A stretch of DNA of 64,000 nt, taken from contig OX411543.1 of NCBI GenBank assembly GCA_948146395.1, positions 61,498,176 through 61,562,175 on the forward strand, read 5' to 3'. A model generated the notes under the pieces. That model was not told the origin of the DNA and did not search any database. It saw nothing but the letters and a program-made list of their open reading frames with translations. The position numbers and the translations under genes were made by a program. Below, piece after piece: positions 17,437 through 62,351 of the stretch; the first letter of the stretch is position 1, and every line of letters starts with the position of its first letter. The stretch comes from Fragum whitleyi (Eukaryota; Mollusca; Bivalvia; Cardiida; Cardiidae).

Positions 17437-17444
17437 CAACTTTT

Positions 17445-20377: not shown

Positions 20378-20460
20378 TATATTTATGGTAACTTCCAGTT
20401 CGTCAACTTTCTGTCAAAACTTTTACATTTTTCCCCTAATGCTTATATCTGACAAACATA

Positions 20461-33880: not shown

Positions 33881-34062
33881 TTTTATTATGCCCCCGATAG
33901 GGAGGCATCATAAATTTGACTTGTCCGTCCGTCCGTCTGTCTGTCCGTCTGTCCGTCTGTCCGTCCGTCCGTCATTCCGTCCAAAAACTTTAACATTGGC
34001 CATAACTTCTAAATCAAAGCGGTGTCGGGGCATTGTCATCTTACAGTGACAGCTCTTGTTGA
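33881..34062 (-). mobile_element. Helitron-like element, family G, inside LINE 3
   Basis: On the minus strand it starts tcaacaagagctgtcactg, has atgccccgacacc about 29 nt in, a (gacg)n run and the 3' end tatcgggggcataataaaa. It is 182 bp. Removing it lets the LINE reading frame run straight on (GAA then CGG AAA), so the ends are unusually well fixed and no target duplication is left. Confidence 0.85.
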
Positions 34063-35340
34063 TTCTAAATAAGATTTGAAATCAAAAGACCGGATAGCAT
34101 TGTACGTAATTGCTCTCGATGATGTGTTCAGTTCCGCGTCCCAGTTTTGAATGTAGATATCTTTGATTCGTTGTTTAAAAATGTTTAAAAAGGCATTTAC
34201 GTTTTCGACGCCTTGATTTAGCCAAACATACGAAAACCCTGTTTTCTGTAGGAGATTTCTTACTTTAAGCGCCCAGTTATTTGTATGTGTAGGCTGTTCT
34301 ATGTCAAAAAGCATTTGATTATAAATTTTTTTAATAAATCTATTTTCATCGGATCTGGTGATTTTAAGCCAAAATTTGATGATATAAGAGAGTCTTACTT
34401 TTTTCAAAGGGAGTCGTCCTAATTCACCATAGATGAAGTTATTTGGTGTTTGAAGTTTTACGTTTAATATTTGCTTGCAGAACCTAGTGTGTACTTTTTC
34501 GATGGATTCAGCTTCTGAAAATCCCCAAACTATTCCTGCGTAATTCAGTATGGGAAAAATGAGTTTGTCAAAGAGATCTAAAATGTGGCTAATACCTATA
34601 TCTTTAAATTCAATTAAATATTGTTTGAGGGCGAAAATTGCTTTTAGTGCTTGTCCTTCCATTTTCTCAAATGTTGTGTTAAAGGAGCCCCCAGAAGAAA
34701 AAGTAATGCCAAGATACGAAAAATTCTTAACAATTTCCAATGTTTGGTTATCGTACGTGAAAAAAAGAGAATCCGGTAATTTTCCAGATTTACGGAATAC
34801 CATAACTTTAGTTTTTTTAACATTAACACTTAATTTCCATTTGTCGCAGTATGTTTTCAATATGTCTAATCCTTCTTGGAGGCCGTTTTCGGTACTGGAA
34901 AATAAAACGATATCATCTGCGTATAATAATAAGTATAATTTAAACATTTCTAAGCTTATCCCCTGAAAATCGTTTAGGGACATATATTGTTCGAGATCGT
35001 TTACATAAATAGCGAAAACAAAAGGGGACAAACAATCACCTTGGGGCGCTCCAAGGTAGCAGCTGAAGCTATCACTTAATTGGTTGTCTAATTTTATTCT
35101 TGATTTCATATTGATGTACATTGACTTAATGATTTGGAGGATTTTACCTGTCACGCCATATTGAATTAGTTTATAAAAGATATTTTCTTTAACTAATAAG
35201 TCGAAAGCTTTAGTGAAATCTATAAAGCATACATATAATTTCTTATTCTCATTGATAAATTTATTTATAAGGCCGTGAAGAACAAAGATATTGTCTGTCG
35301 TACCCATATGTTTTCTGAACCCAGCCTGGGCCTCGACATA
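34036..35340 (-). pseudogene. LINE 3 reverse transcriptase, about 430 aa, interrupted
   Basis: RT motif A (CFIDFTKAFD, about residues 27-36), motif B (APQGDCLSPF, 87-96), the catalytic YADD (129-132), KTKVMVF, and the C-terminal block with YGELGRLPL. The last eight residues before the stop come from the inserted family G element. It is closer to the LINE at 52580-57890 (which also has YGELGR) than to LINE 1 or LINE 2. Confidence 0.8.
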
Positions 35341-35529
35341 TACTCATAGCGAGTAATTGAGGATTGTTTCAGTTCATTCCCATTGATAGTTTAGGAGGAG
35401 TTGCGCACACAAAAAATTGCTAACGGACAGACGGGCAGACGGACGGACAGACGGGCAGACGGACGGACAGACGGACGGACGACCGAGGCCATAACATAAT
35501 ACGACCCTTTCGGGCGTATAAAAAGTGAA

Positions 35530-35901: not shown

Positions 35902-36107
35902 TTATTGATTGTCGTCATCGCTGTGGCCAATTATCTCACTGACGTCAGCTAAACTTGGTTCGTATAAGTCAAAGGGGTTTTCCAGCTCGTTCTGTGTAAA
36001 GAAGGTTTTTACTGTCGATCCAGTACTTTTGTGCTGTTCACTGGCCTCCACCACCTGCTTCCTGAGAGACCTTGGGTGTACACACAGATTGATTGCTGGT
36101 TCATTTG
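35902..36107 (-). CDS. SHFL: SHFL exon 7 (terminal)
   Basis: Acceptor ttgtttcag|CA (AG at 36108-36109); two bases complete Pro215. Encodes CVHPRSLRKQ, STGSTVKTFF and an acidic tail ending HSDDDNQ. TAA is at 35902-35904. An AATAAA overlaps the stop codon (35901-35906). Confidence 0.85.
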
Positions 36108-39100
36108 CTGAAACAATATTTTTTTATGGAAACTAACAGCATATCTAGCAGTTAGAAAATATAACAGTAAGGTAAACTTCGGTTGTCCCATAAGTGAGAT
36201 CGCAATTTTAGCGCTAGGACATTCTTGATTGTTAACAAAAGGTCATTTGGGAAGTTGTTATAATCCAAGATTAATGCCCTGGCAGGGCGGAGCCTAAGTA
36301 TTGGTATTGACAAGCAATCAAAAGCAGTCGATCCCAAAAAGATAATCTGGTAAAGTCGACTCAAGGAAGTTTTGTTGGCGCTGCGACACGATATGAAAGA
36401 ATACTGCTATATGTATGAATTATTTTGCGATTTTTTTTATTATTCTTTTTACTGACGTCAGGAAAAAAAGAATCAGTGAAAGTTTGGAATTACTTAACTG
36501 TATGGCATTTTACATCGTGAAAACACAGATTGAATGATTGATTGATTGATTGGAGTTTAACGCCGCTTTCAACATTATTTCAGGTATACCGCGGCGGCTG
36601 GAGCACCTAACAATGGATCCCTGGTATTTCTCTCACCAGTACAACCATCACATTCTTTCCTAGCCTCCAGCCGCTATCTTACATAGGAAAACACAGACAA
36701 GCTTTACTAACACTCCCTCTACAAGTGTCAGAGTCGAAAGGTTACGATTTCATAAATTTTTTCATAGCTTAATTTGAGTAGCGGTCACTATGGTTTTGAG
36801 CATCACGTGCGCCTTCTTAAAATTCTTGCTTCGATACAAAATTGCACGTGTGTCTTAAGCATTTGAAATGCCAATGATTCACGTAAAAAGTGGTGAATCA
36901 TTCCCAAACGTTTTATTACTAAGACAATCTATTATTGACATCGTAGTATTTTCCACTTGAAATGTGGTCGGACCCAGAAACACGTTTTAAGCTTTAAGCT
37001 GAGTTAGGTGTGACAATTGTTGAAACAATTCGTCTTATAAACGTAATCACCAGATAATTTGTTAGACTTGGCCAAGGTAAGCCGCTTGTGACGTCTGTAC
37101 GATGAGGTAACCGCATCGGACAACCTCATTTACGTATTCAGTATTTGGTAACCAAATCTTTGACAAATTCATAGAACGAGCTTCTGGACAATCAGTAAGC
37201 CAATATGCATGGTTTAATTACACAATTGATGTTTTGCTGTTTTGTCAACATAGTCAGCTCTGTCAATGTCAACAAATAGGGATGTTAACCTTGAGCCTGG
37301 ATAAATCCTGACTCAAAAACAGTTCTAGCGTGAACTGGACCTAAATGCATTTGTCTTTCATATAAAATGATAAAATCAAAGGCCTGAAAGGCCTGAATTG
37401 AAGACAGGACTGAATATTAACAATTGGAATGAAAATTGTGGCGTTTTGAGAAGATCTCTTGAGTGGGAATCAAAAATTTAAAACAATCATTGATGGTTAC
37501 ATATGGAAACTGCACCTTCCTAACAAATGAATATGCTTTACTTTGAAGACTCATCACTTCCAGATAAACCTATCCCTCTAGCCAAAATTCAAACTTAACA
37601 AGAGGGTAACTGCCTTCATAATCGCTATTCACCCCTCCCCCCGTGTAAGTTTTCAATATCCTAAATGAAAAAAAATCATTTAACCAACAGATATATGGGG
37701 GGAATACCCGAACTTCTTCAAACTCATATGAATTATTGCAACCCTGTTTTATGAAATTGTATAGATTATCCCCAGCAATATGATCCAAATCGGATTTTTT
37801 CTAAGGAAACTCATTAAGTGGATGTGTAAAAACTTTAAAAGAAATATTAATCCACATGGCACACATTGCTTACCCCTTGATGAAGAGCTGAACATTTCAT
37901 TGCCCTAGTGAATATTGCCCTGAATTGGAAATTTGTTCAAATTTCTTTTACCTTTATTATCTGGTACAGGATTTGACTCAATATCTCAACATAAAAAAAG
38001 CAATGAAAGTAATACCAATATACTTATACTATTACTAGTCAAAGTCAATACCAAGAAGCAGTATTTTCCCGTACAATAGCTGTAGCTTTTGTTGTTTTTA
38101 TGAATACCCTTTTAGTTTCTTTCAGGAGTGAAACATCCTACTCTAATTCTCAATTGAGATATTTCGATCTCCATTTCAGTTTATTGTTACATATGGTCTT
38201 ATTTAGTAGAAAATTCTTTTAACTACAAAATAATACATAAACCTGTTAAGACTACCAACCTTTCAGGCCTTTTCCACGGGACTGCTTTTTTCTAGATTAA
38301 GATTGGGATTTAACTATTCGGTGAACTACAAATTTTGACAAAACTGTCAAAATAACAGATTGTTATTCATCCCGAAGTGTAAGTTTTCAATATCCTAAAT
38401 GAAAAATATTCATTTAACCAACAGTAATATGGTGGCAATTCCTGTATTCTAAAAACTCATATGAATTATTGCAACCCTGTTTTATAAAATTGTATAGATT
38501 ATCCCCAGCAATCCAATATGATCCAAATCCGATTTTTTTCCAGTCAAACTTATTAAGTGGATGTGTAAAAATCTTAAATAAAATGTTAATCCACATGGCA
38601 CACATTGCTTACCCCTTGATGAAGAGCTGAACATTTCATTGCCATGGTGAATATTGCCCTGAATTGGAAATTTGTTCAAATTTCTTATACATTTATTATC
38701 TGATCCAGGATTTGACTAATTATCTCCACATAGAAGAAGCAATGAAAGTAGTACCAATATTCTTATACTTTTACTAGTCAAAGTCAATACCAAGAAGAAG
38801 TATTTTCCCGTACAATAGCTGTAGCTTTTTTATGAATACCGTTTAAGTTTCTTCCAGGAGTAAAACAATCTATTTCTATTTTTCCATTGAGATATTTCGA
38901 TCTCCATTTCAGGTTATTCTCCTTGCATAAAGTATTATTTAGTAGAAAATTATTTTTACTACAAAATAATATATAAACTTGTTAAGACCACCAACCTTTC
39001 AGGCCTTTTCCACGGGACTGCTTTTCTAGATCAAGATTCGGATTGAACTATCCGGTGAACTATCAATTTTGACAAAACTGCCAAAATGACAGATCGTTAA

Positions 39101-42100
39101 ATGAAATCCCGAGCTACAGCATTTATCACCTTGAGTAGAATTCTTTCAAAGTCCACTCCAGAATGTTACAAATAAATCCATTCCAGTTTCCAAAACAGTT
39201 TTTGTTATTGTCAGAAAATTGTCGAAAACAAAAGCGGAAACTCAAAACCGGGGTCGCGCATGCGTGGTACTACTGTATAGGCCATTCGGAACACCGCTCG
39301 GCCAATCTAACGCATTCGTCACAACTCGGCCGATTCCGTAACCTACATTTGGATAGATCTGAGACTTCGGAGATCGCCCGATGATTGCCGAGTGAATATC
39401 ACGATCACGATCTGTTGCCGTTTACGGAAATGACCGAGTGATGTTCCGAATGCTGTACAATATGGATAGACAAAACAAGCCTAATAATAAAGTAATTTGA
39501 TAAGCCATCGAAATTTCTCCGTAAATCCAAGTAAAAATTCAAACCTAGGAAATTCCAAGGGTTTACGAGTTTATTCAATTAGCTTGTGCTTTTTTAGTTT
39601 TTATCCATTTACACTACGACAGGCCCGGGAGACGGATAAATAAAGCAACCTTAAGGACACACAAACACACAATTTTACGAGAAATAGGGAGTCTAAAATG
39701 GGGAACTGAAAATAGCTTGCCAATGCTATGCATAAAAACAGTTGTAGGATGCAATTGAAAAATTTGGAGCAAATGCAAAAGATTGCAGCCGAAAACGCCC
39801 TAAAACAGCACCACTTGCGAATGTAAAACACGTTTCTGCAGGCAACTTCTGCATAGATCACGTGTTCACTCCCCTGAGGTCCCGGCCAGAATTTAGGTCA
39901 GCACCAAAATTTTACGGTATATTGCTACACTATTGATTATTTTTGCCGCGTTTATTTTTATGAATGGGTCTACTTTTTTGAGCGTAATGACACATGTAGG
40001 TTTGTTATCAAAATCCGATGGCGACGATCCCTATATTGAAAGACAGGTAAACCTGTCTTCAATAAAAAGCAAGATGGGTTGTGTCATTTGCCCTTTCTGA
40101 TTGACTGAGGCGTTTTTTACAGACGTCTGCATATAATGAAACACCATCACTAAAAACAAGCATTTCAGATGAACTTGTGGAAAGAAATGCCAAGTCCTCT
40201 ATATTGCTGTTATACAAATTTGAACAGAAAGTATCCGTGTCTTCCTAAAATACAAGTGGACGGGAGAAAAATTGAACGTGTTCTTTTCATACAAAAATAA
40301 GGAATTTTAACTTCAAATCACTCAGAAAAAAATCCGGTTAAATTTCCTAGAATATTTATACGTCCAGCATCAGGATCTTCCTCGAAAATTGATGGAACGA
40401 AACCAAAATCAAACTTGTTCTGTAACTCATTGACGCGAACTGACATACCAAAAATCAGCTTTATACCTTTCTGCTACCTTGGAACAATATTTCTTTCCTG
40501 TCTTTTATGCTCGTGTGAGCTTAATTACATATGCTTAGGAAGTGTACAAATTGAATGAATACTTTGACCAAATAACAGATGTTAGTCAACACAGCCCTGC
40601 GTTCAGAATGACAAAACGGTGCAAACTATTTGTAAATCAAACCCCGCTTTGCTTATCTAAACGCAGGAGTATTACTTACGACCTGGTGGTGATCTATTAA
40701 AACAGTTCGGTGCTCTACAGCTATGCCTGGTTCTTCTGTTACCCCTTTTCCTTTTTCCCTTAAGCGGTGGTAAAACTTCTTCAGGAGAACAAGGCTTGTA
40801 GCACATGTTACGGTAACAGGGACACCATGTCTTTCCCATAGCTCCGAATCCGCTGTAATTCAACAAGAGGTCCAAGAGGGCCTGTGTCGCTCGATTGGCT
40901 TTAACATCTCCAGATTTCAAAAATCGATTTTCAAAAAAGAAATCAAATTCGAAACGTGGTCAATTACAGAACATTCGTGCCAAGTTTTATTGAAAAAAAT
41001 ACCCAATGGTTAAGGAGGATATTTTGAAGTGTAAATAAGCCCTGCCCTGTCACGCCCATATTTGACGGTCATTCAATTTTTTTTGAAAAATAAAGATACA
41101 AGGTTCTCAGAGGAACATTCGTTCAAAGTTTCGTTGAAATTGGTCAAATGGTTTTAAAGTTAAAATAATTTTGCCCTGCTACAACCATGTTTGGGGTCAA
41201 TCAAAATCTCTTGATCAACTTGGGCACATGGTCACCCAGGGAATATTCATTCCAAGTTTCATTGAAATGGAATCAGTGGTTTTGGATAATAAGATTTTTA
41301 ACGATTTCATAGTGAAAATCCTTCCACGCCCAAATTTGGGGGTCAATTAAAATTTCTTGAACAATATAAGTAAAGGGTCACCAAAGGAACATCAATGCCA
41401 GGTTTCATCAAAGCTGGCCCAATAGTTTGAGGGAGAAGATCTTAAAAGATTTTAACGTAAAAAAGCCCCGTCCTGCCACACCAATATTTGATGGGGGGGG
41501 GGGGGGGGGGGTTCAATCAAAATTTCTTAAACACCCTTGAAAGATCGACTTTGTTATCCAACGAACACTTCTGCCTAAATCGTTGAACACGGCAAAATGA
41601 TTCCCTTTGGAAGGAGAAGATGTTTAGAGATTTTAAAGTGAAAACGATCCCCAGTATACAACTCCCGTATTTGGAACTCGATCAAAATTCCTTAAACAAT
41701 CTAAATATGGGTAACCAAAGGAACATTCATGCCAAGTTTCATTGACAAAAGTAATGTTAGGAAGGGAATTTTTTAAAGATTTTAAAGAGAAAACAAGCCC
41801 CGCTCATATTTTGGGGTCACTCAAAATTTCTACAACAATCGATCAGCAAACATTCATACCAAGTTTCATTAAAATCTGTGCCATGGTTTTAGGTGAGATT
41901 TTTGAAGCCATTCCCATGTATTGGTTAAATCAATTTTTTGCAAAATATAAATAAAGGGTCACCCAAGGAACATTTATACCAAGTTTCATTAAAATTGGCC
42001 GAATGGTTTAGGAGGAGAAGATTTTTTGTAATAAGGGACCCCCAACGAACATGCATGCCAAGTTTCATTTAAATCGGTCCAATAGTTTGGGAGGAGAAGA

Positions 42101-45100
42101 TTTTTGGAAAATTTATCGTCTTAATAAGCCCCGCCCCACTGCGTCCATATTTGGGTGTAAATAAGGGTCAACAGAGGAACATTTATGTCAAGGACCATTG
42201 AAATCTGTCCAAATTTTTCAGAGAGGAAGATTTTTAAAAAATTGGAAGTGAAATTAGCCCCGCCTTGACACGCCCATAGCTGGCGTCAATATAATGTCTT
42301 GAAAATTCTAAGTATCGGGTCACCGAAGGAACACTAATGCCTGTTTCGTTAAAATAGGCCAAATAGTTTGAGAGGCGAAGAATTTATCATATTTTAAGTG
42401 AAAATAAGCCCCGCCCTGTCCCGCCCATATTTGGGTGTCAGTCAAAATGTCTTAAACAGTATTTGTAAATGGTCACCCACGGAGCATTTCTACCAAGTTT
42501 CTCTGAAATTAGCTAAGTGGGTCTGGGAGAAGATTTTATAAGATTTAAAGTGAAAATAAGCCCCGCACTGTCGCGCCCATATTTGGATGACAATCAAAAT
42601 TTCTTGAAAAATATTCAGAATGGGTCACCCAGGGATTTTTTTTCACAAAGTTTTTTTTGAAACCGGCATTATGGTTTCTGAGGAGAATATTTCTATAAGA
42701 TTTTAAGTGAGAATAAGCACCGCCCGTATTTGGGGGCCAATCAAAATGTCTTTGGACAACTTTGAAAGATGGTCATTCAAGCTACATTTACGCCAAGTTT
42801 GGTTAAAACCGACCCATTGGTTTGTTAGAAGAAGGTGTTTTAAGAAAAGTTTTCGCACGCACGGACAAACGCATACACGAGCGCAGGACGAACACAACTT
42901 CATGAAAAAAGCTCGCTGGCCTTAGGCTAGTGGAGCTCAAAATCAAGGCGGTGAAAGTACTGATGTTTGACGTGTCTGATACTATCTAGAGTGTTATATC
43001 AATATGTAGGGAAAAGGATGATAAAACATGTAACAAGAGCACCACCTACGGGTGTCTATGTTAGGCTGTTGGTTGCCGGGTAGTGAATAAAAAAATCTAA
43101 GTCGAAATAGGGGAATTAGTTGCACAAAATGCATTCATAGTCATCCCCCTTGATAGTATAAATTACTCTTTTGATCATTTACATGTATGCGAAGTTTCAA
43201 GTGAATGTCTTAAGTAGAACCAGATATGTCACAAATCGCTCGATGACGACGACAACGGCGACCCCAAGGCTATAGCAATATCTCGGGTTTTGTCCGAAAA
43301 CAACAAAGCTAAAATATGATTGTTGCAAAATGGCTTGATCCAAGTTTAGCAAGTCTCAATGTCAATGAGTCTGAATTATACGATCAAGGCTAGCAACGCC
43401 TAAACCTTTGTTGGGAAAGGAGAAAAACGAGGACAATGATGGTCCTATATCGCTAACCTGAGTAAGTCAACTCATAGCTTGTCAACCATGTTACAAATAC
43501 TAGAGATTCTTTGATGTACATTTAGGGTGGTTTTGAAAGAAACTGACTTAAATTTCGTCCCACTGTAATTTTTTAGCTCGACTATTCGTAGAACAGGGGG
43601 CTATTTCGGGCCCCGGCGACGGCGTAATGCTTCAGTTAAGTTTTACGTGCAAGTGTTAAGAATGTTTGTTTTTACTAGAGCAATTGCTTTGAAACTTCGA
43701 ACATGCTTTTGTGACCATAATATCAGCCTCTAGACAACGAATCATCACTTTGATATTGATTTTAGTAGAATTTAACCTTTTCGGACTGCTCAAGTTTTTA
43801 CGTGCAAATGTTGTATATCAGTTATTTCTCTATTTCTACTTAACCTATTGCTTGGAAACTTTGCACATGCTTCTGTGACCATAATAGCAGCCTCTTGACA
43901 AATATTCATCATTCTGATTTTAAATCTAGTGGAATTTAAACTGGTTTAGTTTTTACGTGCAAATGTTGTATATCAGTTATAATTCTATTTCTACTTAAGC
44001 TATTGCTTGGAAACTTTGCACATGCTTTTGTGAGCAAAACTTCAGCATCTAGACAAAGATTCTTTTCTCTTGAGTTTTAATTCAATGGAATTTTCAAATG
44101 TCGATATTGATTTGCTGTTACTATCCAGCACATGAAATAGTCGAGCTTTGCTTTCCTCTGACAGCTCTTGTTTACTTTTCTTAATTTTTCAACCTTTCTG
44201 TTACCATTGCAAACAAAGTTATTGATGGAATTGAATTCTTTTAAGAACTTAAGTAGACCTTAACCCTAAGACCATCCCTGCAAATTTTAAAATTGGTTGA
44301 CCCTATACTTTAGGAGAAGATTAACCTTTTCTGTGATTTTTGGCATTTTTTTTACATTTCCGTTGCATGGAAATGGGAGTTTTTTATTGAATTAAATTAG
44401 TTTTACTATTTCGGTTGAGCTTTTTCCAAGGAACATCCCTACCAAGTTTCAGCTTAATTGGCCCAGTGCTAAAGGAAGAGGAGAATTTTTCTAAGAGTTT
44501 TGGTAATTTTCGGCCATTTTTCAGCATTTCCGTTACCACGCAAAAGAGAGTTTTCGATGAAATTTAATTCTTTTAACAAATTTTGAAGAGCTTCCCAAAG
44601 GCAACACCCCTGCCAACTTTCAGCTTGATTGGCCTAGCGGTTTAGGAGGAGAAGATTTTCTAATATTTTCGGCAATTTTTGACAATATTTCAACCTTTCC
44701 CTAACCATGGTTACCAGAGGTTTTGATGGAATTGATTAATTTTAAAAATAGTTTTGAAGAGCTTCTCCCAAGGAACATTCCTGCCAAGTTTCAGCTTTAT
44801 TGGCCTAAGCGTATGAAGGGAGAAGGGTTTTTTCCTAAGTTTTTTGTCAATTTTCGGCCAATTTTCAGCCTTTCTGTTACCATGGAAACCAGAGTTTTTA
44901 ATGAAATTAAATTCTCTTAACAAATTTGAAGAGCTTTACCCAAGGAACATCTCTGCCAAGTTTCAGCTTGTTTGGTCAAGTGGTTTAGTAGGAGATTTTT
45001 TCTTATATTTTCAGCAATTTTCGGTCATTTTTCGACCTTTCTTTTATCATGGAAACCAGAACTTTTGATGAAATTGAATTCTTTTAACAATTATTGAAAA

Positions 45101-48100
45101 GCTTCATCCGAGAAACATCTCTGCCAATTTTAAACTTGATTGGCCTCGTAGTTTAGGAGGGGAAGAATTTATTGGAAGCTTTTTCGAAATTCACGGCATT
45201 TTCTATAACAACCTTTGAAGAGCTTTACACAGGGAACATCCGTGTTAAGTTTCGGCTTTATTGGCCCAGTGGTTTAGGAGGAGAAGATGTTTAAAGAATT
45301 TGTTGACGGACGGACGGTGGGTGATCACAATAAGCCACAGGTGAGCTAAAAATGCAAGTAGCCCGTGTAATTTGACTGTGGTTGACCTTCTACTTACATG
45401 TAAGCATGTAAATTTGTAGAACAGACGCGGGGGGGGGGGGGGGTGAGACAAACTTATAAGGTGCTGGTAACATGTCTATTCTGGGGTTTATTTGGATTTA
45501 TGTTAGTTTGTTAGTAGTGCCTTTAGTATATGCGAGGATTATTTAACACTTAGTACTTTGGGATTATTGTAAAAAATTTTGGAAAGGATATTTTTAGACG
45601 GACAGAACTCCGGAATATTAACAAAGATAAATAGCTTTTATATTGTCTTTAAGTTTTTGTTGTTTGATTTTGTTAATAAAATTATCAAATTGTAAACCGT
45701 GTTTGTTTGACTTCTGCTGGCCCATTACACTCTTTTCCAATTCATTGAGTTAACGAAACAAGCCTTACTGGAATTCGTTTCCACATACACAGGCGAAGCG
45801 AGCCCAACCCCACTCTAGGTCACGTGGTATTGCATCATAATTCCTGCTACATTTTTTACACCTGGATACCTGCATAGGATAGACGATATCCAATTAACAT
45901 TTTCTAAAGTTGACTCCTTTGAAGATGAAATCAAGAGGTCCGTATTGGCCTGGGACGCTCTACTAAGTCACTGGAAAATGTTATGGCATGATGTGTCTGT
46001 ATGAGATACAATAATATTTGAGACTATTTTACAAAAGATTATCTCTCAAAAGTCATTCAACAGTCAAGGACAATGGTAATGTTATAAATATATATATTTT
46101 TTATAATTATGCGATATTCCCAAGGGAATGTAATGAATAAAATAAAACAGTTTACCCTAGTTCAATATTTCGGCATGAAGCCTTTATCAAGAAAATCAAA
46201 TGAGAACATTAAAATTTCACATATTTTCTCTCACTGACCACCATTGAAAAAATGGTGGTCAGTGAGAGAAAATATGTGAAAGTTTGAACTAGAGTAAACT
46301 TTTTTATTTCATTTTATTTATTTATTTATTATATTTATTTTTTGGGGGAGAAGATCACTTTTCATATTAAACTTGACAGTACTTGCCAATTGCATAAAAT
46401 CATTTTGTACAAGATTGAAGCGAATGTGACGAAGATTGAACTCACTTTAACGAGGATTCTAACCCAATTTTTATGAGTCTCCATTTCATGTGATACTTAA
46501 CAGACGTCGGCCATTTTTAGAAAAAATAACAATTTTTTTATTGGAATTCTTTCAATTAATCGTGAAGGATCGCAGAAAATCAAATGAAAACTGTGGACTT
46601 TGCGATAACGACGAGAATGATCTAATCAATTTTCACATTGCCCCTTTTCCAGAGATACTTGAAGGACCTGAGGCTTCTTTAGTCTGTTGGTTTAAAAAAA
46701 TATTTTGCAGAGTTTCCATAAAGTTGTTTTTGAATCAAAACCAAATTAGGAATACGGTTTTAGGTCAGTTTAAATCGGTATTGAAATACCTTTTGAAGCG
46801 ACAAGGTTTTTGCATACATAATGAATAGTTATTTTTAAGATGATGAGGTTTTTCCATATTTGTGGATAAATTTTAAAGATTTCGAGTTTGAAAAATCGAA
46901 TAGAATTACTTAAAATGAATGTCAACCATATCAAATATGAGTGGTTGACATATTAATTGGCTTAATACCTCGTCAATGTTATGGTCAATATCCTTCACTG
47001 TAACAAAGAATCAATCTTCAATATTGCAAAATAAACGATCATTAGCATTATTTGTCTACAAGATAATGTGTGGGAACCATCTTTAAAAAAAAAAAAAAAT
47101 CAATAATATTGTCGATAATATTGACCGTGTGTTGATCCCATAATAGGAATATTTACCAATTTCCTGGCTGTGACCTTACGCCACCACATATTATCGCATC
47201 GGTCACATCCAAATTGTCGGAATTCATGTCCAATTCTGTTTTCTCTTGCTGTCTGGCGTACCGAATTGTCGCGTAGTATTTCCTCTCTACGCTGACGTCT
47301 TTTCTTCACTTCTTCCCACTGTTGCAAAAACAATCCAAGTACAACAGTATTGAAGTAAAACATGCTTTTAAACAAAATATTTGAAGTGGGTTGTTTTTTC
47401 AAAATATCCCTGGTCATGTATTTCAGCTCGATACCAATCCACTTTGAAATAAAGACCGTTTTGGAGGTCAGTCTTTTCAAAGTGAGTTAGCATTGCAAAT
47501 TATATTAAAATTCGTATAAATTTTAGGTTTTCACCAAATCATTTTTGAAGTTAGAACAAGTTTTGCTGAAGCAATTTTCTAAGTGGGTTGACTTCTAAAA
47601 CAATCTTAAAAAATCGTATTTCAAGTTGATATAAATCCGTTTTGAAATAAAATCACTTACATATATCCTTGAAACATGAAAACCTAGTCATCGAAGCTGG
47701 TAATGAAACTTGTAATGTTTAAAAGTTTGACAATATTTTTCTCAATTTTTAATAAAAAAATGCACATCAATAATTTAATATCAAAGATGGTATAATCTAT
47801 TAAGATTTCGAGTTATAAATAATGATGAATTTTTTTATTTTCACTCCAAAAACAAAATGTACAAAGTTTTATTTTTTTTCTTTCTTTTTTTAAATCCTTA
47901 ACTGATAAATTGAAAGTTTTACTCAAGGACCAAAAATTATCTCATCACGAAATGTCCTTGAAATCTGCCATTTTCAAATGAAATCAGCAATAAAATCAAC
48001 CGTTTATTTCATTGTTAAGTCATTGAACTTGGTAATGAACAGTTGTAATGTTTAAAAGTTTGACATTAGTTTTCTCAATTTTCAATAAAATTGTATATTA

Positions 48101-50153
48101 TTGATTTGATATCAAAGATGGTATAATCTATTAAGATTTCAAATATTTCGAGTTATAAATAATAATATAATTATTATTTTCATTCCAAAAACCTTTTTTT
48201 AAAAACATTAACTGATAGATTGAAAGTTTTACTCAAGGACAAGAAATTATCTTATCACGAAATGTCCATGAAATTCGCCATTTTCAAATGAAATCAACAA
48301 TAAGGTAACCGTTTATTTCAAACTGCGACTGAGTTGAATTCTTTATTTCAATGAAAAGAAGAAAATTCGTTTTGAAAAGATTGTTTTATCTGCTAGTTTA
48401 TTAACCCCCCCCCCCCCTCCCCCCCCCTTCAAGGGCTTGATTCGATTTCAGTTTTTCGATAATCGATCGAGATTTTAATTATTTAGATAACGACCCGTTT
48501 GCTACAAGGCACTAGACAGATAAGAAAGTAACGGCATTCGTAGTACATGTATATTTGATATGACCAAAATGAGATTTTTTTAATTTCAAAGAAAAACCAA
48601 CCGAAGTCGTCAATTGAAGTTTCACTTATTTAAAAAAAAGTGTGCAGGTGTTACACATGTAAATCAAGGTATAAGCAGTCCAGCCCTGCGTACAGGATCA
48701 AAACGCTAGCCAAGCGCATTCGAAATGATACCTCGCTTTGCACGTATGTGTACGTGCAAAGCGGGGTATCATCTCAAAGCGCCCGCGAAACGTTTTTACA
48801 TCCTGAACACAGGGCAGTTTCTGATGGCAAACCGCAACCTTTTGTTGTGATGGTAGTACCTTACAATGCGAATTTTCCGAATAAGCGACAATCGCTGTGA
48901 TAATCTCTACAATCGAAATGAAAAATTTAAGCTTTTCATCACAAGGCGAAAGGAAAACACCCTTCGACGACGATTAGAAAATCGTTTTAATTAAAGTGAT
49001 TTTCTAGTCCTGGTGATAAGATTAACAATCACTATATACTAGTTGAGTCCTAATAACGCAATGCCATTAGCTAACTCGTTTTTGGTATTCGAAGCTAAGC
49101 ACGGTTTTATAAATTTATTTAAAGAATGAAAAAAAATCAAATTTGTAATAATAATACAAAAAATTCACAAACAGAAGATGACGGTTTGCCATAAAAAACC
49201 TCCATAGATAAAATAGAACAACTGACGTCTCCACTGTTTACTTCTTTGAGCAACTCAGTCACAACCTCTGGTTCACCTGAAATAGTTGAAAATAAAAAGA
49301 AAAAATATGGAACTGGCACAAAATGCTATATGCACAATATGTCTTCATCCCTCCTCCTGACTGGAATTAATGGGAATGCAGAAATCCACTTTTTAATATG
49401 TTTTAGAGCAAACGAGGGTAACACCTATAATAACGCAGGGCTCCATCATCACATGTTTACTTTAAATCCACCTGAAAGTTTTCAGAATAATGCTTTAAAT
49501 ACAATAATTTGAACTATTCAAGCGCAGATACGTTTGCTTTTAAATTGTTTTGAAACTTTAACCACATTTTCTATCGTAGATGTCCCAATGCAAAGCTAGT
49601 TGTATTAGTGGAAACACGTGTATTCTGAAAACAAGTATACAAAATTTCACAAAAGTAACATGAACACACTCAGCTCCACATTTTATTAAGATAACTACTG
49701 CTTCCCGGGACAAATCAAGTGACAGAATGAACCTCAGACACCCCTCTTGTCTTAGTTTTAGTTTTTCGATGGCGTTTATTATCAGAGATATAAAGTTTTA
49801 GTTTTATTACCAGAGATATAAAAATATTATTCTAAAACTCTGTTATTTCAGACAGTTCGGTTTCCACTATAAACGCATTGAATATTTCCAACTGGCGAAA
49901 AAAACCACATCTTCCAATCTACGAAGGAAATATAACTATCCTGATGATGCTGTTAATGATATACTTTGGATTTTTATTGTCAATTTGAGACAAACCGCGA
50001 ATGAAATGAAACGCGTTTTATGAAAAAAAGGTAATCCATATTTAAAGTCTCATAAGCACTTCAACTGCTTCGACGTTATGTTATTCACCATAAAATCGGG
50101 CCGTTCTTGGTTGTTTTGATAACGTCCAGTGTCAAGGTTATCAAGTAAACCTC

Positions 50154-50195
<42 letters not shown>

Positions 50196-51126
50196 CGGGC
50201 AAATTCGAACCCCTATGGTTGGCTTTTGAATGCTCATTTCGACACAATCTGTTGTTTTTTTTTAAATCGATTGTGTATTGTCTGTAAATGGGACGCACTT
50301 TGCCCGGGATTTGACAGAAAGTTATGTCCTAAACATGCTTTTAAATACACCAAAAATGTAGACTTAATGTTTACTTTTGAGTATATAATCCGCAGCTAAA
50401 ATGACATCCCAGTTGTTGTGTCGAAGTAGGATTCCACTTTCCTGTGGGGTGAAACGACCCTTAAACAGCTCCTGAAGCCGTCGACTCTGAAACAAACGTA
50501 GTAAAAAATTATTCAATCAATCCATTTTTCGCTTACATAACCTTGGCTAAGATTTCGTAAATTTGCTTCATTTTTCTTCAGTTGTAATTCTCAGCAAAAA
50601 AAACAAAAAAAACAGGAACCTTAAAAAATATTATCTGAAAGATACGTGATGAAAATGAAATGTATTATCGAGGCATATCTTATGTTCTATTACAATATGA
50701 TTCGCCTGTTCAATTAAATGTTCACCAAACTTAATTGTTTTATAAAGAAAGTATTAAAACTCTTGTTAACTTTTTTCCTTAAAGATTTTAAGTACAGTCA
50801 AACCTGTCTTAGCGGCCACCTGTATTCAGCAAGCAACCTGTCTTAAGCAAGCGGTCGCCGGGTTCCCAAAAGAGCTATTAACACTGAAATTGACCTGTCT
50901 TAAGCAAGCACCTGCCTTAAGCAAGCGCTTTTTGAATGTCCCTTGGGTGCTTGCTTAAGACAGGTTTGACTGTACATAAAAATATTGGCCGAAGCACTCG
51001 AGAAACTGTTGGAATATATCGTGCTCCTAACGGAACTCATATGTATATAAGATATGTGGTGTATACCTTTTTTATCTTGTTTCGTTCTTCACTCTCTACA
51101 TCGTCAACATCTGGCCCTTCTGCCAT
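35902..51126 (-). CDS. SHFL: Shiftless-like antiviral frameshifting inhibitor, seven exons, 282 aa
   Basis: Exons: 51067-51126, 50375-50486, 49242-49276, 47157-47318, 45769-45869, 40680-40852, 35902-36107. They total 849 nt, all GT-AG, every phase consistent. Residues 23-35 (RLQELFKGRFTPQ) match the SHFL N-terminal helix region. The zinc-ribbon core has C107/C110, W114-W115, VSRC-KKC (C127/C130), the WGWARF strand and C150/C152. Then come GFGAMG, Cys pairs at 167/169 and 174/178, HSC..NCFNR (200-210), CVHPR (223-227) and STGSTV. This order follows vertebrate SHFL (C19orf66/RyDEN, about 291 aa), an interferon-induced cytoplasmic RNA-binding protein that blocks programmed -1 ribosomal frameshifting and restricts many viruses. 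The orthologue call rests on the motif series. C150-V-C152 is CxC where vertebrates have CxxC. Function in a mollusc is inferred. The 35-bp exon is the least certain part. Confidence 0.88.
36534..36690 (-). mobile_element. tRNA-derived SINE, 3' part only
   Basis: A (gatt)n tail (minus-strand AATC) at 36534-36551, then the body tttaacgccgctttcaac and gagcacctaacaatgga shared with 56255-56528. The tRNA head is missing. Lies in SHFL intron 6. Confidence 0.75.
36691..37560. other. SHFL intron 6 stretch without recognised features
   Basis: No gene, repeat family or hairpin recognised. Confidence 0.4.
37570..38050 (-). pseudogene. decayed ORF with RGKQC and GDNLYNFI motifs, copy 1
   Basis: Read downward on the minus strand: QGNIH, a stop, then GNEMFSSSSRGKQCV, then with frame changes WIAGDNLYNFIKQ-like text (here HIAGDNLYNFIKQGCNN) and PPYICWLN. 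The QG...F....RGKQC pattern recalls the N-terminus of C76/OTU-like cysteine-protease domains found in mobile elements and large DNA viruses. That link is tentative. Stops and shifts show it is dead. It lies in SHFL intron 6, same strand. Confidence 0.45.
37645..38378. repeat. 734-bp tandem duplication, unit 1
   Basis: Matches unit 2 (38379-39112) in order and spacing, offset 734 bp: gtaagttttcaatatcctaaatg, attgcaaccctgtttta, cacacattgcttacccc, tttcaggccttttccacggg and tgacaaaactgtcaaaat all recur. Small indels and substitutions show it is not recent. Confidence 0.85.
38379..39112. repeat. 734-bp tandem duplication, unit 2
   Basis: Second unit, ending tgacaaaactgccaaaatgacagatcgtt. Both units carry the same decayed minus-strand coding remnant. 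Confidence 0.85.
38414..38679 (-). pseudogene. decayed ORF with RGKQC and GDNLYNFI motifs, copy 2
   Basis: Two overlapping frames (38482-38679 and 38414-38605) together give QGNIHHGNEMF, SSSSRGKQCV, THPLNKFDWKK and GDNLYNFIKQGCNN. Where copy 1 has a stop, copy 2 has His, so copy 1 decayed further after duplication. Family assignment is uncertain (see copy 1). Confidence 0.45.
39113..40590. other. SHFL intron 6 stretch, unclassified
   Basis: A GC-richer block at 39240-39460 holds an inverted repeat (separate entry). Nothing else recognised. Confidence 0.4.
39283..39452. repeat. 20-bp imperfect inverted repeat around a GC-rich core
   Basis: CATTCGGAACACCGCTCGG at 39283 and its near inverse CCGAGTGATGTTCCGAATG at 39434-39452 (two mismatches) flank 130 bp. 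This looks like a small MITE. A promoter-like island is an alternative. Confidence 0.6.
40680..40852 (-). CDS. SHFL: SHFL exon 6
   Basis: Acceptor gttgaattacag|C (AG at 40853-40854), donor GGTC|GTAAGT (GT at 40678-40679). Encodes GFGAMGKTWCPC, NMCYKPC, a basic KGKRKRGNRR stretch and HSCRAPNCFNRSPPG. The open frame continues upstream of the acceptor to about 40920, but those residues do not fit the family. Confidence 0.85.
40930..42945 (+). mobile_element. long pearl/Helitron-like element, about 13 core units
   Basis: Units of about 110-150 bp share cccatatttgggggtcaatc, atttcttgaacaa, gggtcaccnaaggaacatt and ccaagtttcattgaaat. They end in gcacgcacggacaaacgc simple sequence and the 3' end ggccttaggctagtggagct then CAAAA. 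An 18-nt G run sits at about 41493-41510. It fills most of the 3' part of SHFL intron 5, antisense to the gene. Confidence 0.75.
43032..43315 (+). mobile_element. single-unit Helitron-like element
   Basis: Starts aacaagagcaccacctacgg, has a (gacgac)n/aacggcgacc stretch near 43245-43262, and ends gttttgtccgaaaac...aaagctaaaa. No tandem core. Confidence 0.6.
43425..45352 (+). mobile_element. Helitron-like element, family H, split by another
   Basis: Starts gaggacaatgatggtcctat, with cgctaacctgag about 25 nt in. Seven or so units of about 165 bp (44210-45300) share gccaagtttcagcttgattgg and tttaggaggagaagatttt. They end with gacggacggacgg and ccacaggtgagctaaaaa. A minus-strand element occupies 43569-44172. 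In SHFL intron 5. Confidence 0.75.
43569..44172 (-). mobile_element. Helitron-like element, family I, nested
   Basis: On the minus strand the 5' end is aacaagagctgtcagagg with agctcgactatt 26 nt in. About three units of roughly 170 bp share gcatgtgcaaagtttccaagc. The 3' end has aatagtcgagctaaaaa. The two 12-mers are exact inverted repeats. Inserted in family H. Confidence 0.8.
45429..45448 (+). repeat. G homopolymer run
   Basis: An uninterrupted run of about 17 G after gacgcg. Other G or C runs are at 13040-13074, 41493-41510 and 48406-48429. Such runs are prone to length errors and can form quadruplexes. Confidence 0.9.
45769..45869 (-). CDS. SHFL: SHFL exon 5
   Basis: Acceptor cctatgcag|GTATCC (AG at 45870-45871), donor TTCCA|GTAAGG (GT at 45767-45768). 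Encodes VSRCKKCSRNY, PRDLEWGWARF and CVCGNEF: the second and third Cys pairs of the zinc-ribbon core. Starts in phase 0 and leaves two bases that form His157 with exon 6. Confidence 0.88.
46130..46320. repeat. foldback repeat, near-perfect arms
   Basis: Inner arms tcacatattttctctcactg and its complement are perfect over about 30 bp around a 5-nt loop gaaaa at about 46246. Outer arms (aaacagtttacc...tagttcaa and ttgaacta...gtaaac) also pair. Lies in SHFL intron 4. Confidence 0.8.
46490..46828 (+). CDS. unrecognised 112-codon open frame
   Basis: A plus-strand frame in SHFL intron 4, antisense to the gene, with CGLCDNDENDLINFH and a basic C-terminus. The CxxC...H spacing faintly recalls a LINE C-terminal knuckle, but I cannot assign it. 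No splice or promoter evidence. A remnant of a mobile element is most likely. Confidence 0.25.
   Translation: MILNRRRPFLEKITIFLLEFFQLIVKDRRKSNENCGLCDNDENDLINFHIAPFPEILEGPEASLVCWFKKIFCRVSIKLFLNQNQIRNTVLGQFKSVLKYLLKRQGFCIHNE
47157..47318 (-). CDS. SHFL: SHFL exon 4
   Basis: Acceptor ttgtttttgcaacag|TGG (AG at 47319-47320), donor AAATTG|GTAAAT (GT at 47155-47156). 54 codons in phase 0. A charged helix (EEVKKRRQRREE) leads into HEFRQFGCDRC and NMWWRKV, the first Cys pair and the WW pair that mark SHFL. Confidence 0.88.
47690..48325. repeat. tandem duplication of about 332 bp
   Basis: ggtaatgaa...tgtaatgtttaaaagtttgaca, tcaaagatggtataatctat, gaaagttttactcaaggac and atcacgaaatgtcc recur in the same order, offset about 332 bp at the left end and about 305 bp at the right because of an internal deletion. 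In SHFL intron 3. No coding content. Confidence 0.8.
48406..48429 (+). repeat. C homopolymer runs
   Basis: Two C runs (about 14 and 9) split by a T. Likely unstable. Confidence 0.9.
48682..48815. repeat. long imperfect inverted repeat, GC-rich
   Basis: The core is gatacctcgctttgcacgta, a 4-nt loop tgtg, then its complement with one mismatch. The outer arms pair gccctgcgtacaggatc with its near inverse at 48799-48815. A related ccctgcgttcag/ccccgctttgc phrase is near 40600. Fits a MITE-like family. In SHFL intron 3. Confidence 0.75.
49242..49276 (-). CDS. SHFL: SHFL exon 3, a 35-bp micro-exon
   Basis: A strong acceptor: ttctttttattttcaactatttcag|GT (AG at 49277-49278). The donor is AAAGAA|GTAAAC (GT at 49240-49241). 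It takes one base from exon 2 and leaves phase 0, as exon 4 needs. Encodes EPEVVTELLKE. The frame is open beyond the donor to 49137, so a retained-intron form would end there. Confidence 0.65.
49280..50150. other. SHFL intron 2 stretch without recognised features
   Basis: No gene or repeat recognised. Confidence 0.4.
50156..50194. repeat. AT microsatellite
   Basis: (AT)n of about 38 bp in SHFL intron 2. Confidence 0.95.
50375..50486 (-). CDS. SHFL: SHFL exon 2
   Basis: Acceptor cgtttgtttcag|AGT (AG at 50487-50488), donor TCAAAA|GTAAAC (GT at 50373-50374). Encodes SRRLQELFKGRF...NNWDVILAADYILK. The segment LFKGRF...LL resembles the start of vertebrate SHFL. NNWDVILAADYIL also looks like a CUE/UBA-type helix. 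Confidence 0.85.
50795..50972. mobile_element. mariner-type MITE, 178 bp
   Basis: Ends CAGTCAAACCTGTCTTA and TAAGACAGGTTTGACTG, flanked by TA on both sides. Internal repeats of cttaagcaagc. In SHFL intron 1. Confidence 0.9.
51067..51126 (-). CDS. SHFL: SHFL exon 1 (start codon)
   Basis: ATG at 51124-51126 in a strong context (A at -3, G at +4). 20 codons, MAEGPDVDDVESEERNKIKK, then donor AAAG|GTATAC (GT at 51065-51066), phase 0. An acidic then basic N-terminus. Confidence 0.82.
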
Positions 51127-51344: not shown

Positions 51345-51358
51345 AATCGAAACCGAAA
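51345..51358 (+). promoter_or_regulatory. IRF/ISRE-type site upstream of SHFL
   Basis: AATCGAAACCGAAA is an exact match to the IRF consensus AANNGAAANNGAAA, followed by G. It lies about 219 bp upstream of the SHFL start codon. Vertebrate SHFL is interferon-inducible, and molluscs possess IRF proteins. Function here is inferred; a similar GAAACCGAAA occurs at 56183 inside a MITE, so chance is possible. Confidence 0.5.
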
Positions 51359-51669
51359 GTAGGCTACAGAGCTGTCGACTGTTATTATTTGTAATTGAAC
51401 TAATAAAATCAAATCAAAATCTAGAACTTAAACTTTCGCCATGTATACAATTAATTTCTTGTAACTAGAGGCTTATCCCCGTGAAAAAGAAAGTTGAAAA
51501 CACATGACAGGATTCCACTCGAACGGTTTACATGCATGTTCTCCATGATTGAATGTGTTACAAATATTTACATTTAGAACAGAACCAAAATGTTAAGTCA
51601 CTACGTTGTTCCTGTTAAGTACCTAGACGGTTTAAATTCAGATCTTATGAACCGTCTGGTCACTTCATC

Positions 51670-52110
51670 TTTAAGAGCAAATTAAAGCAATCGAAAATAC
51701 CCAGAGAAGGGCTCTTAAGATAATTACTGCTCTAAAAATCCTAACCTATACAGAAAGACAAAAGCAACTCGGACTGTCTACACTAGAACACAGGAAATTA
51801 CGAGCCGACATGCTACAGACATTTTAAATATTGAAAAATTCAGACAATACTTCAAAACTCAGTTTCCTAAGTAAAAACTACTCATTAATTTCGAACCAGA
51901 GGAAATAGTCTGAAACTTTACAAAAGACATACAACAACTGAAACCAGAATTTTCTTTTTTCAGAAATAGGGTAGTAGACACATGAAACTCATAACCAAAC
52001 GAAATAGTTAACTATCCAAGTATAAATGCCTTTCAGTGTAATATCAAGAAATACTGGCGCAATCATCCCCGAAAGTTCAACGTGACCTGCTATAGAAACG
52101 AAAATGAAAC
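51670..52110 (+). pseudogene. CR1/L2-type LINE, C-terminal fragment
   Basis: With frameshifts and stops the plus strand reads ALKIITALKILTYTERQKQ, LGLSTLEHRKLRADMLQTF, then FFRNRVVDT and NEIVNYPSINAF. This is the C-terminal domain of LINE 1 and LINE 2. Only the 3' end survives, as expected of a 5'-truncated insertion. Confidence 0.75.
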
Positions 52111-56254: not shown

Positions 56255-56528
56255 TTGATTGATTGAATGGGTTTTACGCCGCTTTCAACAATTTCGCAGT
56301 TATATCGCGGCGGCCGGAGCACCTAACAATGGATTCCTGGTACATCTTTCACCTGTACTACCATTACACCCTTTCCTAGCCTCCGACTGCTATCTCACAT
56401 AGGTTTACGATTATCTACCCATTGGTAAGAGACAAACGTCGGAAAGGATATTTGCCGCAACCGGGAATCGAACCCACGACTTCCAGATTGGAAGTCTTAT
56501 GCCTAACCAACTGCGCTATGGTGGCGGC
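56255..56528 (-). mobile_element. tRNA-derived SINE, full length, 14-bp target duplication
   Basis: On the minus strand the tRNA-like head has box A (tagcgcagttggttagg) and box B (ggttcgattccc), then the body with cattgttaggtgctcc and a 3' (AATC)n tail. AAATCTTGGGATGA flanks it (56241-56254 and 56529-56542). Best-preserved of three copies. Confidence 0.9.
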
Positions 56529-59231: not shown

Positions 59232-60362
59232 TTAATAATGGTAAATAACTTTATGGTTCCAATGTTTGTCGATTCTTGATTTAAACTTGTTCACATTTTT
59301 GGCTGCAATAACTTCTTCTGGTAAAGAATTCCAATCATTAATAATTCTTTGTGAGAAGTGTTGTTGTCTTAAAGATGTTCTACAGCGGGGCTTTTCCAAT
59401 TTTAGGCTATGTCCACGGGTTGTTGAATCTTTACATACAGTGAAATATTTTTCTGCAGAAATGTCTTCAAAACCTTTTATAATTTTGAAAGTCTGGATCA
59501 TGTCGCCTCGTCGTCTTCTGTGTGCAAGACTGGGTAATTTCAGTGTCCTTAATCTGTCAGTATATGTTAAGTCTCTCAACTCTGGTATTATTTTTGTGGC
59601 GCGCTTCTGTACCTTTTCTACACTTTCAATGTCCTTCCTTAAGAATGGATACCATATTGAATTTCCGTACTCCACATGGGGTCGGATAAGTGCCTTATAT
59701 AGAAGAATGAATGAGTCCTTCTCGATATAATTGAAAGTTCTGACTATTAAAGACAGTATACTATTAGCTTTGTTAACCTTTTCAGCGATGTGACAGCTAA
59801 ACTTAAAGTCTTGTTGAAAACTAACACCTAAATCCTTTTCCTCGTTTGTCGATTCAATATCTTCAAAGTTCATTGTGTATTGGTAACCTTCGTTGTTTCT
59901 GCCGTAATGGAGAGTTTTACATTTTTTCACGTTAAAACGCAGTTGCCACGACTGAGCCCAAGTGAATAAGGAATCTAGATCTTGTTGAATGACATCACAA
60001 TTACTATCTGTATTATAAAGCTTTGTATCATCAGCAAAGATACGAACAATACTTGTAACTACATCAGGAAGGTCATTCACATACAATATAAACAAAATGG
60101 GCCCCAAGACGCTACCTTGAGGAACCCCACTTAAGACATCTTTCCATGAAGAAGATTCTCCTTTCACTGATACATATTGTCTACAGCCCGTTAGAAAGTC
60201 TCGTATCCATGATAAAACCGACCCTCTTATCCCAAAGGTTGACACTTTTTTAATTAAACGTTCATGAGGTACGCTATCAAAAGCTTTGGCAAAGTCCAGA
60301 TATATTAGTGTCCCAGTTTTCATCATCTTCAATGTACTTAGACCAGTCCTCCATGACATCAA
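59232..60362 (-). pseudogene. LINE 2 reverse transcriptase, C-terminal part, 376 aa
   Basis: RT motif A (LDFAKAFDSVPH, 22-33), motif B (GVPQGSVLGP, 79-88), catalytic FADD (109-112), KKCKTLHYG and DLGV, then the C-terminal domain (RATKIIPELRDL, WNSLPEEV). The true N-terminus is upstream in another frame; the overlap with 60277-61155 is a one-base shift within gatgatgaaaactggg. Catalytic residues look intact. Confidence 0.87.
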
Positions 60363-61155
60363 TCAATTGTAATATACACGAGCGCCCAGAACGAAAACCA
60401 AACTGAGCTTCAGATATATGATTATTTCTTTTCAAGTGTTCAAGTATTTCGGCTCGAATGATGGTTTCCAGACATTTGCAGACAATCGAAGTAAGACTCA
60501 CTGGACGGTAATTTCCTGGATCACTTTTCTGTCCATTTTTGAATAATGGTGTAACACGAGTGTCTTTCCAAACTTTAGGCAAGGTACCAGACTTGACAGA
60601 TTCTTGAAAAATGTAAGCAAGCGGAGTAGCGAAGACAGTAGACATTGTTTTAAGTAATAAGGGATTTATTTCATCTGGTCCCATAGATTTTCCAGGATTT
60701 AAACCTTTCAAGACTTTTTCGACCACTTCTGCACTGATACATAAATTGTCAAGAGGCTTATCAAAGAAATTATCATTAATAGGAGGAATTTCACCCAGAT
60801 TTTTGTGAGTAAAAACACTTGCAAAAAAGTCATTTAATACTTCAGCTTTTTCATGGTCTGTATTGGTCATTGTAGAGTCATGTCTTTTCAGATTAGTCAC
60901 TGCACTTTGGGATTTAACCTTGCTTCTTACATACTTCCAAATATGCTTACTCTCAGATTTAGCTTTTCCAGCCACTTTTCTTTCAAAATTCCGTTTTGCC
61001 GTACGCACGCTTTCATTGCACCGATTTCTTATTATTTTGTAATTTTCAAAATCATATTGGCGTTTTGTTGCAAGGTATCTAGACCAAGCATGCCTTTTCT
61101 CTTTGATACTGGTTAAACAATCCGCCGTCATCCACTGAGGCTTTGGTTTCAACAT
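60277..61155 (-). pseudogene. LINE 2 linker and RT N-terminal part, 292 aa
   Basis: A basic linker (KEKRHAWSRY), GPDEINPLLLK, the RT motif SDPGNYRPVSLTS and AQFGFRSGRSC. Continues from the endonuclease frame through a shift in a ccccc-aaaaaa run at about 61150. Confidence 0.85.
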
Positions 61156-62351
61156 CCTTTTTTGGGGGTATATTGTGGCACATACTTGTTAACACATTCA
61201 TGGTACTTTTGTGAGAAAATATCCCACATTTCCTCAATATTACGCTCTTTGAAACTTTCTACCCAATTCATACTTTCCCAGTCTGCAGTGAAAGCCGCAA
61301 AGTCACAATCATTATATTTCATCTTGGCTTTTCCTGTGCAAAATTCACTGAAAGAGCATATGTATTCAAACTGTATAAGAACGTGATCACTTACTCCAAG
61401 TGACGGTAAAATATTAATGCTATCAATGTCATTTTCATCTTTTGTAAAAACAAGGTCCAGTATGTGTGGGGTTTGATTCTCTCTTATTCGGGTAAAATCA
61501 GTTATATGTTGAAACAGAAAGTTGTCTCTAACACATTCTATAAAGTCATACTCGTAGTGTGATTCATTGTGTATGGTTGTATAATTTTCCCAATTGATAT
61601 CCTTCATATTAAAGTCTCCCGTTATCAACAAGTTAGGGCTTAAGCTGGCAGCCTGACTAATAAGTCTATTAATGGTTACACAGGAATCATTTGAAGACGG
61701 ACTTCTATATATTGCCCCTAAAATAACTTTTTTCCCATCAATTGTCCAACAGCACCATGATGCATCACTATACATATCATTTAATTGATCAAGGGGTGAA
61801 ACATTCAAGTCTGATTTGGCATAAATTATCACACCTCTATCTCCATCTATGCTTGAAAAAGAATTGTATCCATCAATTTGATATAATAATGATGAGCAAT
61901 TCAAGTCAGAATTTACTTTAGGTAGTACCTCTGTAACAAAAATAAAGTCTGGGTTTTCCATGAATATTTGTAACTTCAATTCATCAATTTTATTTCGCAA
62001 TTGGTCAGCATTAGTATAAAAGCACTTTACTTTTTCTGAGATTATTTCAGATATGTTTGAATTATGATTAACAGTACCACTACCTGCAACTGTCCTACTT
62101 AAATCTGACACACATTCATTAATTTGACTATTGTCTTGTCGGAGATGTGAATTAAATTTACTATTGCTGTGACTAGAAACACACGGACTAGAATCTTCCT
62201 GACTGGAAGGAAATAACTGAGATCCTATATTGTGAAAGTTAACAGAACTGTCAAAATTAACATCTTGAACTTCAACAGGAACATAATTAACTCTATTTAC
62301 ATGAGTTGAACAGTTTGAATCTAAAACGCCCGGACTGGCTGGGAATGCCAT
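61149..62351 (-). pseudogene. LINE 2 endonuclease, 400 aa
   Basis: A Ser/Asn-rich N-terminus, then the AP-type endonuclease from about residue 108: FYTNADQLRNKI, VTEVLP, GAIYRSPSS, GDFN (245-248) and an intact SDH (321-323). It would nick target DNA to prime reverse transcription. It ends at a frameshift just after YTPKKGC. Unlike LINE 1, the active site looks complete. Confidence 0.87.

Follow-up and report, generated by a model that had tools for sequence, protein, structure and literature searches.

Frameshift blocking and virus restriction by SHFL (Shiftless) are demonstrated, in those parts of the papers cited here on which we draw, for vertebrate proteins only, and a candidate gene for such a protein in a bivalve raises the question of what the family does, and did originally, outside vertebrates. 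The DNA analysed (the window) is a stretch of 64,000 nucleotides (nt) from Fragum whitleyi (GenBank assembly GCA_948146395.1, contig OX411543.1, positions 61,498,176 to 61,562,175 of the forward strand), and positions below are counted from its first letter unless said otherwise. We find that its minus strand carries a gene of multi-exon nuclear type that we assign by sequence to the SHFL (PF15135, UPF0515) family, and we consider it probable that this gene encodes a ribosome-surveillance factor of the SHFL type.

A seven-exon gene of the SHFL family

The original prediction had joined short minus-strand frames into a complete gene of seven exons and 282 codons with six GT-AG introns in consistent phases. 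Exon count, codon count and introns are all borne out: the spliced sequence is a single open frame of 849 nt including the stop codon TAA, and all six introns begin with GT and end with AG, with phases 0, 1, 0, 0, 2 and 1 and lengths, in order, of 580, 1098, 1923, 1287, 4916 and 4572 bases. The exons are as follows.

51067..51126, minus strand: exon 1, 60 nt, start codon, phase 0; in-phase GT donor, exon end aligning with relatives
50375..50486, minus strand: exon 2, 112 nt; core of the putative UBA-like N-terminal domain, seen by tblastn and by the UBA-like profile
49242..49276, minus strand: exon 3, 35 nt; placed by AG/GT sites, phase and alignment to relatives
47157..47318, minus strand: exon 4, 162 nt; first zinc-ribbon pair, C107/C110, and WWRKV
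45769..45869, minus strand: exon 5, 101 nt; second cysteine pair, C127/C130
40680..40852, minus strand: exon 6, 173 nt; counterpart of the human segment for programmed -1 ribosomal frameshifting (-1PRF) and third zinc-site residues
35902..36107, minus strand: exon 7, 206 nt with stop codon; CVHPR, STGSTV and T246/T249 (human T250/T253)

Exons were checked by tblastn, at expectation values (E) up to 10, with 53 of 113 related proteins (P0001-P0053) as queries against the window and the reversed window. All 53 queries matched exon 5 (best E 4e-14) and exon 7 (best E 1e-20), 52 matched exon 4 (best E 8e-14), and 51 matched each of exons 2 and 6 (best E 3e-8 and 1e-18), against a background in which the best E was 0.12 outside the exons and 0.087 in the reversed window. 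The open frames containing exons 5 and 6 also match PF15135 singly (E 3.6e-9 and 3.8e-8). Exons 2, 4, 5, 6 and 7 are each above chance on their own evidence, and the seven-exon gene is real.

The spliced product matches UPF0515 (PF15135) in Pfam at E 1.2e-43, scoring 149.9 bits where the cut-off is 29.8; the only other Pfam families matched are at E 0.032 and 0.18. Among solved structures the sole significant match is human SHFL (PDB 9kbo; E 4.6e-31, window residues 17-261 to human 7-265), the next structure following at E 0.68. PF15135 was found in 17 of 17 proteins of a first search for relatives and in all 112 of a profile search. The identification as SHFL, made at first from a series of motifs (CDRC, WWRKV, VSRCKKC, WGWARF, GFGAMG, HSC..NCFNR, CVHPR and STGSTV) that are indeed present in the spliced product, is upheld by this homology search. 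The wider interpretation stands only in part: the SHFL identity holds, and three paralogous loci on the same chromosome and a UBA-like N-terminus had been overlooked.

Molluscan SHFL is itself already known in public databases, where at least 30 of the 112 relatives, from bivalves and gastropods, are named shiftless homologue, repressor of yield of DENV (RyDEN) homologue or UPF0515 protein; what the present analysis adds is the further copies and the UBA-like N-terminus. The closest named relative, from Mactra, is 49% identical to the window protein, and the closest unnamed transcript 57%. The literature searched, which comprised open-licence papers, held no co-mention of 'shiftless' and 'bivalve', and no paper on molluscan SHFL was among the matches listed in further literature searches; PMC10433982, in the part consulted, compares SHFL among vertebrates with frog as outgroup. 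The window protein resembles the molluscan homologues at NCBI (Mya, Mercenaria, Mytilus, Dreissena, scallops, gastropods) in family, length and the aligned N-terminal and zinc regions, but has a longer charged stretch after exon 3. With human SHFL (9kbo) it shares PF15135, the zinc-ribbon cysteines and T250/T253, but the N-terminus of the molluscan type is more clearly UBA-like, this genome has several loci, and the last residues of the spliced product hold no run like the glutamate-rich C-terminal tail that is a feature of human SHFL (PMC9230503).

A probable UBA-like N-terminus

A profile built from 22 molluscan SHFL N-terminal segments was searched against solved structures at E up to 1. 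Its top match was 2g3q (yeast YBL047C; E 1.3e-5), which we take to be the UBA domain of Ede1, followed by residues 7-38 of human SHFL (E 0.0059). Judging by molecule names, 12 of the 22 matches are presumably UBA chains, seven of them TNK1 and one a hypothetical protein; the other ten comprise human SHFL, one designed protein, two Grb10 chains and six algal chlorophyll-binding chains, the last evidently matched by chance. Since two of these chlorophyll-binding chains, at E 0.007 and 0.0085, do as well as most of the UBA chains, the only match that carries weight on its own is Ede1. In Pfam, UBA_4 was above its cut-off in four of eight scanned proteins, all from scallops, and reached E up to 0.05 in 6 of 63 aligned members.

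Within the family, the N-terminal profile matched 56 of 63 further molluscan-type sequences; of the seven misses one, P0094, is in reality an isoform from a shark, and five more measure 143-182 residues. It matched none of 78 sequences of an unnamed PF15135 group (see below), and nothing below E 2 in reversed sequences. All 15 vertebrate rows gave weak matches, with E from 0.0034 to 0.58 at a nominal 1000 sequences and four under 0.01. The first loop of the molluscan segment, which reads F-x-G-R-F, differs from that of UBA domains. Taken together, the N-terminus of molluscan SHFL is most likely a UBA-like domain, kept in weaker form in vertebrate SHFL; this domain and the zinc sites described below are predicted from sequence. 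We also note that two proteins carry the UBA-like N-terminal unit in tandem, P0029 (Dreissena polymorpha) four times and P0022 (Argopecten) twice, and that, in the literature searched, a single paper mentions both C19orf66 (another name of SHFL) and UBA, the UBA there being that of p62.

Conserved zinc sites and phosphosites

We aligned 94 of the 113 proteins, leaving out 19 fragments, repeat-bearing or odd rows; 66 rows are molluscan or unnamed transcripts ('molluscan-type'), 15 are vertebrate, one of these being an unnamed transcript assigned by the tree described below, and 13 are other unnamed rows. The central CxxC...CxxC zinc ribbon is present in the window protein, with C107, C110, C127 and C130 all kept. 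The positions of human C112, C132 and C135 hold C in 94 of 94 rows, and that of human C115 in 60 of 66 molluscan-type, 13 of 15 vertebrate and 13 of 13 other rows; five clam and scallop proteins (P0011, P0012, P0025, P0026 and P0030) have D or N there. Window C150, C169 and C174 are C in every row, and C152 in 93. A further set of positions (window H200, C202, C207, C223 and H225) is H or C in 58-65 of the molluscan-type rows and in all 15 vertebrate rows, and in at most 5 of the 13 other unnamed rows. Three zinc-finger motifs have been predicted in the human protein (PMC12724340), and this pattern agrees with them; the unnamed PF15135 group seems to be without the third.

The CK1 sites of human SHFL, T250 and T253, lie in a region already reported to be conserved (PMC12724340). 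The GST-V-x-T motif that carries them is present in the window protein, where they correspond to T246 and T249. T stands at the T250 position in every vertebrate and other row and in all but one of the molluscan-type rows (65 of 66); the T253 position is T in 63 molluscan-type, 3 vertebrate (the other 12 having S) and 12 other rows.

Age and distribution of the family

The 112 relatives place SHFL in bivalves, gastropods and vertebrates. Since the gene is common to molluscs and vertebrates, the simplest reading is that it descends from their common ancestor. Interferon in the strict sense is a vertebrate system, and the distribution supports an origin of SHFL that would predate it. The proposal that a bivalve copy makes the protein older than interferon fits in this respect; molluscan SHFL itself is already annotated.

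Bacterial and viral relatives were rejected at the sensitivity of the searches made: profile A3 gave nine pattern matches in GTDB contigs (one peptide pattern) and 15 in viral contigs, and profile A1 gave 25 in viral contigs, none of them confirmed. Scoring the 8000 candidates that shared most words delimited an unnamed PF15135 group of at least 74 proteins, including P0001 and also P0177, which has no domain label; this group was not used for dating the family. Its members P0071, P0096-P0106, P0108, P0109 and P0114-P0177 do not match the UBA-like profile; PF00791 is present as well in P0099 and P0168, and P0071 appears to contain several ribbon repeats.

A probable role in ribosome surveillance

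When human cells lack SHFL and ZNF598, ASCC3 or HBS1L is knocked down as well, the effects on reporters are synergistic; the authors of that work propose that SHFL routinely removes frameshifted ribosomes and is made more abundant by interferon to serve against viruses (PMC10747187). One of these partners, HBS1L, acts in ribosome rescue and binds ubiquitin through a UBA-like domain at its N-terminus (PMC13232801). HBS1L is not itself among the 22 structural matches of our profile, and we see its UBA-like domain as a functional analogue of, and precedent for, the front end of molluscan SHFL. By analogy with the human protein, bivalve SHFL would bind RNA and slipped or stalled ribosomes and help to stop and clear them; the UBA-like N-terminus may help to locate ribosomes marked with ubiquitin, the step from domain to ribosomal ubiquitin being our inference. 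In vertebrates, the older surveillance factor would then have come under interferon control. A family older than vertebrate interferon with a front end like that of a ubiquitin reader fits the order of events in the surveillance model of PMC10747187.

Several results weigh against this reading. Two exons of the gene are weak by themselves: exon 1 was matched in tblastn by 2 of the 53 queries (best E 0.14), and exon 3, of 35 nt, by none at E up to 10. Because tblastn is nearly blank for both, we place them by reading phase, by their splice sites and by alignment with relatives, and for these two the original account was too strong. The PF15135 match spans positions 74-261 of a profile of 271, leaving the first 73 unmatched by the window protein, and the window sequence alone gave no UBA match in Pfam at E up to 1. 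The fold of P0001 predicted from its single sequence had a mean predicted local distance difference test score (pLDDT) of 38.2, and the model was set aside. Finally, R131, R133 and R136, which are linked to RNA binding in the human protein (PMC8310280), correspond to R126, K128 and S131 in the window; the three columns are variable in molluscs, and the R136 column is K in 14 of the 15 vertebrate rows.

It is possible, though we put this forward tentatively and would not be surprised to see it fail, that SHFL originated as a ubiquitin-reading ribosome-surveillance protein with a UBA domain and three zinc sites, that molluscs have kept the reader, sometimes in tandem, and multiplied the gene, and that vertebrates have eroded the UBA domain and added interferon control. 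SHFL has been studied as an interferon-stimulated factor of humans, and its first task may have been antiviral or, as in the surveillance model (PMC10747187), the quality control of translation. With their conserved phosphosites and UBA-like front end, the molluscan copies make this choice testable outside the vertebrate interferon system, and they suggest a possible targeting cue for SHFL, ubiquitin on stalled ribosomes.

Further copies and alternative explanations

The genome (1.22 Gb, 38 contigs) was searched with PF15135 at E up to 0.001. Matches fell at four loci, all on contig C1, at about 40.87, 42.74, 61.54 (the window) and 64.34 Mb; protein queries concurred and added one weak match on contig C19 (E 0.22). 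Copy C (64,342,017-64,345,577, plus strand) has exons 4-7 open, with intron phases 0, 2 and 1 as in the window gene. Copy B (42,755,232-42,737,076, minus strand) has exons 2, 4, 5, 6 and 7 in phases matching the window gene, and its frame is shifted in exon 4 by a 5-base insertion, which may be either decay or an assembly error. Copy A (about 40.868-40.872 Mb, plus strand) has exons 4-6, with no GT donor at the expected site after exon 5, and its exon 7 was not found by tblastn; we take this copy to be decayed. About 6.7 kb below its last exon, around position 40,879,100 (G000:C1, L011), lies a stretch bearing CVHPKS and a repeated VHPKSQGCR-like unit, which is either a relic of exon 7 or a chance likeness.

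In a tree of 67 rows the window gene pairs with copy B (support 94/90, slightly short of the starred level) within a group of bivalves (81/87, unstarred), a position that agrees with the named best hits in pointing to a bivalve source, and copy C sits on a long branch (1.32) with unsure placement. All six vertebrate rows that bear names fall into a single group with an unnamed transcript (100/100). The Mya copies group together and the Dreissena copies likewise (100/99 each), as do the scallop copies in one group and the freshwater-mussel copies in another (100/99); mussels and freshwater mussels have a further set of copies, placed elsewhere with weak support (59/32). The picture is one of repeated duplication and loss of molluscan SHFL.

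Such lineage-wise duplication with decayed copies fits a role in defence, without proving it, and lends some weight to an alternative in which the main work of the bivalve gene would be antiviral, with induction through IRF-type signalling, its duplication and decay reflecting conflict with viruses and any ribosome surveillance being secondary. The region above the start codon adds to this, with a cluster of sites for what we take to be an IRF-element-like pattern.

51349..52109, no strand assigned: three GAAANNGAAA sites, at 51349, 51483 and 52100, all in the 1 kb that precedes the start codon

This density, three sites per kb, was reached by none of 578 overlapping 1-kb background windows, taken from the rest of the window and from nine 10-kb stretches at the paralogue loci, and by 4 of 5000 local shuffles. 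Over the whole window, however, GAAANNGAAA is near chance (13 sites against 9.3 expected, with 19 of 100 shuffles reaching 13), and the stricter GAAANNGAAAC occurs about as often as chance predicts (2 sites, 1.58 expected), and we treat the upstream cluster as a lead only. The key phosphosites, moreover, are constant and not diverging. We think this antiviral account unlikely, and continue to favour a SHFL-type ribosome-surveillance factor.

We also considered that the window copy might be a decaying or mis-joined gene that does not work. Of the other three loci on C1, copy B has a broken frame and copy A lacks a splice site and an exon, and the window gene itself has the two weak exons (1 and 3) noted above; yet all 849 nt are open, the six GT-AG introns are in consistent phase and the conserved sites are retained in the protein, and we regard this as very improbable. 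That the protein belongs to some other zinc-ribbon family merely resembling SHFL, as the weak zinc-ribbon Pfam matches of a few relatives (for example Zn_ribbon_8 in 7 of 63) might hint, is contradicted by the PF15135 and 9kbo matches and by PF15135 in all 112 relatives, and has a negligible chance of being right.

Other features of the window

A reverse transcriptase frame lies just below the SHFL gene (34036-35343, minus strand; RVT_1 E 1.6e-27), and what look by eye like further pieces of retroelement reverse transcriptase and endonuclease lie at 17592-20413 and 59232-62375, both on the minus strand. Intron 5 of the gene contains a tandem array (44417-45146) with a period of 171/342 bases. 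The window also holds genes for tRNA-Thr (17364-17437, plus strand) and tRNA-Gly (56453-56525, minus strand), and a third tRNA match, just over the Rfam cut-off, at 7290-7358 on the minus strand.

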